Shown here piece by piece: positions 2 through 1,171 of a stretch of DNA of 34,992 nt. Every line of letters begins with the position of its first letter. Position 1 is the stretch's first letter. A model generated the notes under the pieces. That model saw only the letters and a list, made by a program, of their open reading frames with translations. It did not search any database and was not told the origin of the DNA. The stretch comes from Phycisphaerales bacterium. GTDB taxonomy: Bacteria > Planctomycetota > Phycisphaerae > UBA1845. Where the stretch lies: NCBI GenBank assembly GCA_020353195.1, contig CP070691.1, forward strand, positions 1,305,625 through 1,340,616, written 5' to 3'. The position numbers and the translations under genes were made by a program.

Positions 2-1171
2 ATCAATCCGGGCTGCATGGCCCAGCTCAAAGAGCGGCTGATCTACTTCTGCGGGCGAAATCAGATGGACATCGAAGGCGCGGGGCAGGTAGTAATCGAG
101 AGGCTGGTCGACGGGGGGCTCTTGGGCGATGTAGCTGACCTCTACGAACTGTGGGAGTACCGAACAAACCTCAAGGAACTGCGGCTCAGCGATAGCAGGT
201 TTGGCGAGAAGAACGCGGATGATTTGCTCCAGAGCATTGAGCGTGTCAAGGAGCGTCCAGTCCCAGAACTCCTCACATCACTGCAGATTGTGGGGCTCGA
301 CAGGGATATCGCAAAAGCGCTGGAGAAGCGCTTCGGCTCTATCTCGTCTCTTGCACGAGCGTCTGCTAGGGATCTGCAGCGGGTGTCCGGTATTACGCCG
401 GTTCTCGTTGATGAGATTGGGAGCTTCTTCCATCCTGAGTCAGACGATGAACTCAAAGATCGCCTTGTGTTCCTGGCGGGCCGGGAGAGGTTCAATCTGA
501 AGGGCGTGGCCCGCATCCGTGCTGAGAAGCTGGTGGCGACCGGGTTCATTCGCAGCGTGGCGGATGTTTTTCAGCTTTGTTCCCACCGCGACAGGCTGGC
601 TGCTTTGACCTTCCCGAATGCGTTTGGAGAGAAGAACACTGACAACCTGCTGAAGGGCATCGAGCGCAGCAAATCCCAACCTCTAGCACGTGTGCTCGCG
701 GGACTGAATATTCGGCATGTCGGTGGGACCACAGCCGAATTGCTGGCCGACCACTTCGGGACCATGGACAAGATCGCCGGGGCGTCGGAAGAGGAACTCC
801 TTGGTGTGGACGGTGTGGGCCCTGAGGTCGCCGGGAGCGTCCGGCGGTTCTTCGGCAGCCGCGAAGCTAGAAAGCTCATTGCCCGGTTGGACGACGCGGG
901 CGTGAACATGAAGCAGCCGAAAAAGCAGGTTGCCGCCGACGCCCCGTTTGCGGGGATGACCATTGTCGTGACCGGGACGCTTTTGGGCATGGGCCGCAAG
1001 GAGGCCCAGGATCTGATCAAGTCGCTCGGCGGCACGGCCGCGGGCTCGGTCAGCAAGAAGACGGATCTGGTCGTCTTCGGCGAGTCTCCGGGGTCGAAAC
1101 TGACCAAAGCCCGCGCGCTCGGTGTGGAAACCGTCGACGAGGCGGAGTTTCTGCGGCGAGCAGGGAAGTAA
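2..1171 (+). CDS. ligA: NAD-dependent DNA ligase LigA, 3' part (5' end outside window)
   Basis: LigA seals nicks in duplex DNA using NAD+. The reading frame is already open at base 2 and reads I-N-P-G-C before the first ATG at 17. That is the end of the family's zinc finger (usually N-P-x-C-P-A-Q), so the adenylation and OB domains lie upstream of the window and the ATG at 17 is not the start. Counting from the codon at 17, residues 4-139 and 147-280 form two gapless tandem copies of the helix-hairpin-helix domain. Residues 308-384 are a BRCT domain ([30 protein letters not shown]). Ordinary LigA has a single HhH domain. Copy one keeps the canonical first half (MDIEGAG) and copy two the canonical second half ([24 protein letters not shown]). 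The gene ends in TAA. Family identity is firm; whether the duplicated form is the cell's only ligase cannot be told. Confidence 0.95.

Follow-up and report, generated by a model that had tools for sequence, protein, structure and literature searches.

LigA is an essential bacterial ligase and a drug target, and most descriptions give it a single, invariable order of domains. The helix-hairpin-helix (HhH) motifs of LigA bind both DNA strands across the minor groove (PMC10504179), and the clamp closes via contacts between the NTase and HhH domains (PMC5052709). For E. coli LigA, the HhH mutagenesis of Wang 2008, as cited in PMC8123306, gives R446 as essential and contacting the NTase domain, and G455, R487, G489, G521 and G553 as essential and binding DNA. 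Here we describe a LigA in which the HhH domain is doubled within a single chain. The literature searched contains no report of a duplicated HhH domain in LigA, an absence that is weak evidence by itself; the doubled-HhH LigA is a genuine domain variant of a well-known enzyme family, and apparently a new one.

The window, by which we mean the whole stretch of 34,992 nucleotides that was analysed (G000:C1:1305625-1340616), lies on a single scaffold of 3.79 Mb with an estimated completeness of 78%. Its base 1 falls within a ligA-like open frame (2..1171, + strand; 389 amino acids, 5'-truncated) that encodes the end of a zinc finger, two HhH domains and a BRCT domain. Neither the window nor the assembly contains the NTase/OB half, since recQ and ligA are separated by 100 Ns (L004:4526-4625) directly upstream of base 1. 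This gap removes the C-terminal part of recQ together with the catalytic half of ligA, and its true length must exceed approximately 1.3 kb if ligA is complete; no LigA NTase domain was found anywhere in the G000 assembly. The window begins at the end of the Cys4 zinc finger (2..25, + strand), of which the fourth and last Cys (INPGC) is all that it contains, the rest of LigA (NTase, OB and most of the zinc finger) falling in the upstream gap; the finger is complete in relatives. The two HhH copies span approximately 26-445 (copy 1) and 446-925 (copy 2), and they are followed by the LigA linker, the BRCT domain and the stop codon (926..1171, + strand).

The initial annotation had read this frame as LigA with its HhH domain duplicated in tandem. 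The duplication is confirmed, nine further genomes carry the same arrangement, and we take the frame for the DNA-binding end of NAD+-dependent DNA ligase. Pfam HHH_2 matches the frame twice, and an HMM that we built from 24 single-copy relatives scores 131 bits on copy 1 (profile 1-134) and 198 bits on copy 2 (profile 1-164). The four-hairpin HhH domain of LigA is present twice over, with folds that match 2owo and 1dgs. The C-terminal BRCT domain scores 52.3 bits (PF00533; cut-off 21.3). Against NCBIfam NF005932 (cut-off 369 bits), the 5'-truncated C-terminal half in the window scores 310.6 bits and the complete G030 protein 877.7 bits. LigA is complete in relatives that share this C-terminal half, among them those whose frames have 819, 823 and 868 amino acids, and the Ia/NTase adenylation domain (PF01653) is in frame with the doubled HhH in G003, G016, G022, G028, G030, G042, G062 and G244.

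Compared without gaps, the two copies share 30 of 136 residues at an offset of 141 (z = 7.6 versus shuffles). The start of the repeat sits on the adjoining diagonal (offset 142). Aligning the copies therefore takes one single-residue indel, and the gapless alignment given in the initial annotation is not strictly right. All four motifs quoted there are present in the window, MDIEGAG (65-85) and IVGLDRDIA (287-313) in copy 1 and FNLKGVA (491-511) and IRHVGGTTA (710-736) in copy 2.

Do both copies keep the HhH fold? The AlphaFold model of the 389 residues in the window has a mean pLDDT of 72.7, with 8 sequences in the alignment, and copy 1 modelled alone has a pLDDT of 79, with 5 sequences, one of which is copy 2; models resting on 5-8 aligned sequences do not place the copies reliably relative to each other. 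In superpositions, the modelled copy 2 matches the HhH domains of T. filiformis LigA (1dgs; Z 22.6, rmsd 1.6, 157 residues aligned) and of DNA-bound E. coli LigA (2owo; Z 21.8, rmsd 1.9, 158 residues aligned). The modelled copy 1 fits the 2owo domain more loosely than copy 2 does (Z 12.6, rmsd 5.7, 143 residues aligned), and its HhH3 and HhH4 are predicted to be folded (pLDDT 85-93). Since both models superpose on the LigA HhH domain, both copies probably keep the fold.

The doubled form occurs in ten genomes of one planctomycete order, 8 of the 51 in the window's family and 2 in a second family. The HhH junction is the same in all ten assemblies. The doubled-HhH frames have 819 (G003), 823 (G016), 868 (G028) and 870 (G062) amino acids and, in the second family, 907 (G042) and 887 (G244); that of G030, which is fused to an exonuclease, has 1,307, and the gene is cut off at a contig end in G019 and spread over two contigs in G022. 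The initial annotation had asked whether the duplication is clade-wide. The distribution is patchy, even inside genera, and carriers stand beside single-copy congeners. Among the matches listed for the class (397 genomes) and for the phylum (392 genomes), no further full-length doubled form was found; weaker duplicates could escape the cut-offs. Other long LigA frames in the class and phylum were rejected as doubled forms, having a single HhH domain or, in G675, an unrelated insertion. The G675 insertion (L113; another Planctomycetota family) is approximately 110 amino acids long, lies at ORF residues about 501-611, on the HhH1/HhH2 boundary, and roughly coincides with the site of the extra material in the doubled form. 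In phage and plasmid searches, the best listed hits match LigA in two pieces, with about 41% identity or less.

In most carriers the doubled-HhH LigA is the only DNA ligase, which argues that it is neither an artefact nor a spare. Exactly one NTase is present in each carrier with a recoverable NTase. A backup by an ATP-dependent ligase was considered and rejected, no such domain being found in any of the 12 genomes checked. A second, standard ligA, for which the initial annotation had advised a search, is absent from the better genomes; the exception is G019 (L011, L050), where a doubled-HhH ligA on a 4-kb contig occurs together with a standard ligA, possibly owing to contamination (5%).

We are interested in how the two copies have diverged. 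HhH motif scores were normalised to 34 single-copy LigAs and averaged over the carriers. Relative to the single-copy proteins, the mean scores of HhH1 to HhH4 are 0.99, 0.31, -0.25 and -0.14 in copy 1 and 0.11, 0.61, 1.05 and 0.96 in copy 2, HhH2 being intermediate in both (0.31, 0.61). This complementary motif retention is found in 9 of 9 complete cases, across both families, in counts that are not independent because the ten carriers share ancestry. Among 39 single-copy relatives, R446, G455 and G521 are invariant, G489 and G553 are nearly invariant, and R487 is poorly conserved even there (22 of 39). Copy 1 keeps the equivalents of R446, G455 and G489 in all nine proteins, that of G521 in two and that of G553 in one; copy 2 keeps R446 in two, G455 in eight, and G489, G521 and G553 in all nine. 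All four hairpin glycines are therefore retained by copy 2 in 8 of the 9 proteins, and the exception, at G455, is the window's own protein. The net charge of the first half of copy 2 is +1 to +12, versus a mean of -1.7 in the 39 single-copy LigAs (p = 3e-5), and the shift has the same sign in 9 of 9.

In the window, the first half of copy 1 (HhH1-HhH2; 26..253, + strand) keeps a canonical HhH1 and the R446, G455 and G489 equivalents, and its second half (HhH3-HhH4; 254..445, + strand) has lost the consensus and the hairpin glycines, with the fold still predicted. The first half of copy 2 (HhH1-HhH2; 446..682, + strand) has lost the HhH1 consensus and carries a net charge of +5; the second half (HhH3-HhH4; 683..925, + strand) is canonical and most resembles the genus sister's LigA, a single-copy form (73%). 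The initial annotation had read such a pattern as complementary decay, with the copies splitting the work of one domain. The consensus is indeed retained in a complementary fashion in all nine cases, but “decay” is not quite the word for a copy 2 that keeps its glycines and has turned basic, and the split is too simple, since copy 2 has mainly lost the NTase-contact Arg and copy 1 the HhH3 and HhH4 glycines. A basic first half of copy 2, unlike that of a normal LigA, fits re-specialisation and not decay, and the residue pattern as a whole points the same way, although the observation of complementarity was right.

Downstream of ligA, the window encodes a DEDDh 3'-5' exonuclease whose middle is weakly TerB-like and which ends in a BRCT domain (1290..2579, + strand; 429 amino acids). 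It matches PF00929 (RNase_T) with 103 bits, above the gathering score of 24. Its scores lie below the cut-offs of PRK06063 (NF004719; 195.7 bits, cut-off 389, exonuclease part only) and PRK06195 (NF004844; 80 bits, cut-off 373). Among 75 relatives, 9 have a close homologue; in five cases it lies with a duplicated ligA (fused in G030) and in one beside the variant ligA of G061. In G030 (L072:4285-8175), the doubled-HhH LigA is fused in frame, via a linker, to a DEDDh exonuclease-BRCT, in a protein of 1,297-1,307 amino acids. A DEDDh exonuclease-BRCT gene adjoins ligA in 6 of the 10 carriers versus 2 of approximately 60 others (p = 4e-5, a value that treats genomes as independent and uses a hand count of the approximately 60); it was not found beside ligA in G028, G019a, G022 and G244. 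The exonuclease tree that we computed came out unresolved. In G042, the gene beside the duplicated ligA is a PRK06195-like exonuclease-BRCT (L078:8094-9068) of a type that differs from the window's; in the sister genome, G046, none was found next to ligA. The adjacency, together with the one fusion, suggests work at nicks that need 3' trimming.

On balance we lean towards a duplicated and then re-specialised HhH domain, with copy 1 docking on the ligase core, copy 2 gripping DNA, an enlarged clamp and an exonuclease partner. What we observe is the duplication, its recurrence, the partition of residues, the status as sole ligase in the better genomes, the gene adjacency and the one fusion; the roles of the copies, the enlarged clamp and the exonuclease partner we infer. 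The HhH domain of LigA would have been duplicated in tandem, after which copy 1, by the zinc finger, would have retained the docking surface for the core (HhH1 and the R446 equivalent), its HhH3 and HhH4 hairpins looking no longer fit for DNA binding. Copy 2, by the BRCT domain, would have retained the DNA-contacting hairpins, with a basic first half and with the core-docking Arg mostly gone. The clamp might then close through copy 1, and copy 2 might hold a longer or a different stretch of DNA. The 3'-5' exonuclease-BRCT, often adjacent and once fused, would provide for nicks whose 3' ends require trimming before sealing.

Alternatively, HhH1-2 of copy 1 and HhH3-4 of copy 2 might together form one normal HhH domain, the approximately 143 residues between them being a largely idle inserted arm. 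We regard this as possible, if unlikely. In one alignment the single-copy LigAs do correspond to HhH1 of copy 1 plus HhH2-4 of copy 2, with approximately 142 residues skipped, but with another choice of fragments the alignment was entirely to copy 2. The loss of the G455 equivalent from the window's copy 2 would also agree with such an arrangement, as would the outer parts, which remain nearest to the genus sister (73% for G000/G001 and 83% for G244/G059 in the HhH3-HhH4 half of copy 2). However, in 8 of the 9 proteins the middle retains the copy 2 equivalents of G455 and G489, it has turned basic, and HhH3 and HhH4 of copy 1 are predicted to be folded (pLDDT 85-93), none of which one would expect of an idle stretch; copy 2, moreover, is modelled as a single intact HhH domain.

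As to the origin of the duplication, the NTase tree follows genus, grouping G030 with G071, G062 with G023 and G042 with G046, and it rejects one clade of whole duplicated genes (AU p = 3.5e-24). The HhH tree groups the copy 1 sequences together and the copy 2 sequences of the window's family together. Within that family the two copies form separate groups (99/92 and 94/85), which speaks against a separate duplication per genus there and favours a single origin; this is the origin that we prefer, on phylogenetic grounds, for the window's family, to which G042 and G244 do not belong. The second half of copy 2 and the BRCT domain are often nearest to the genus sister, the BRCT identity being 77% between G000 and G001 and 74% between G244 and G059. 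The second half of copy 1 has approximately 20-35% identity between carriers, and the C-terminal half of G042 sits on a very long branch.

Between G042 and G046, the flanks and the catalytic half share 81-90% DNA identity and most of the HhH/BRCT region is unalignable; inside this region lies a 290-bp patch with 89% DNA identity (L078 vs L087), which suggests a mosaic or very uneven evolution. Between G032 and G060, the middle of ligA is swapped for another type and the ends are conserved, and recombination likely replaced the middle in G032; in control pairs of the same genus, identity is even along ligA. For the patchy doubled form, transfer by recombination and ancestral presence followed by many losses are both possible. 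A second alternative type of LigA C-terminus occurs in G032, G061, G071, G068 and G021 (L045, L083, L082, L084, L047), in which the zinc-finger region is elongated, with additional Cys pairs in most of them, and the HhH domain is altered; it clusters in the HhH tree and not in the NTase tree, and it is the type that has taken the place of the ligA middle in G032. A wider proposal, which we advance tentatively and consider doubtful, is that in this order the DNA-binding half of the ligase is an exchangeable module behind a vertically inherited catalytic domain, where three or more types (the ordinary one, the one with duplicated HhH, and the one with elongated zinc finger and altered HhH) substitute for one another, and that the duplicated type, with a dedicated 3'-5' exonuclease-BRCT partner, makes a trimming-and-sealing ligase.

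Could the extra HhH domain be tolerated clutter in a housekeeping enzyme, a near-neutral duplication with no functional gain whose patchiness reflects frequent loss? The patchiness within genera and the low identity of the second half of copy 1 among carriers would suit such a history, but we think it quite improbable, given a frame that is open across both copies in 9 of 9 complete cases, a residue partition repeated in both families, a uniform sign of the charge shift and an exonuclease association improbable by chance. An assembly or binning artefact made of chimeric contigs, which the initial annotation had named among the outcomes that would refute it, is extremely improbable: most of the genomes are drafts, probably assembled from metagenomes, a scaffold gap directly precedes the window, and G022 and G019 have the split gene and the two ligA types described above, but the same junction recurs in ten assemblies, G042 consists of one 3.9-Mb contig on which the sequences either side of ligA are syntenic with, and 81-90% identical to, those of its sister G046, and the doubled ligA lies on contigs of 33 to 211 kb in G003, G016, G028 and G244.

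A sole ligase with a doubled, re-specialised HhH domain would amount to a natural experiment that sets apart the core-docking and the DNA-holding parts of the enzyme. The patchiness inside genera and the exonuclease fusion make two ideas testable: that a replicative ligase can exchange its DNA-binding half like a module, and that this half can be coupled to 3'-end trimming.

How does this locus compare with known systems? Like the LigA proteins of E. coli (2OWO/5TT5), T. filiformis (1DGS) and D. radiodurans (8AK4), the relatives have the full Ia/NTase-OB-Zn-HhH-BRCT order, and the window has the zinc finger end, HhH and BRCT, where copy 2 can be superposed on the HhH domain of either the E. 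coli or the T. filiformis enzyme (Z about 22). In contrast to these proteins, the doubled form has two HhH domains and not one, has frames of approximately 815-890 amino acids versus about 670-700, and has the essential residues shared out between the copies. The neighbouring gene product shares the DEDDh exonuclease domain of PRK06063 and PRK06195, but falls below both cut-offs and has an additional, weakly TerB-like middle. The heterodimeric DNA ligase of phage PR1 (PDB 9HU3), as described by its PDB title, offers a further parallel: it too appears to place a LigA-like HhH unit in a non-standard layout, and both copies match 9HU3 chains. Going by that title, the phage ligase is made of two subunits, whereas here the HhH domain is doubled in one chain.
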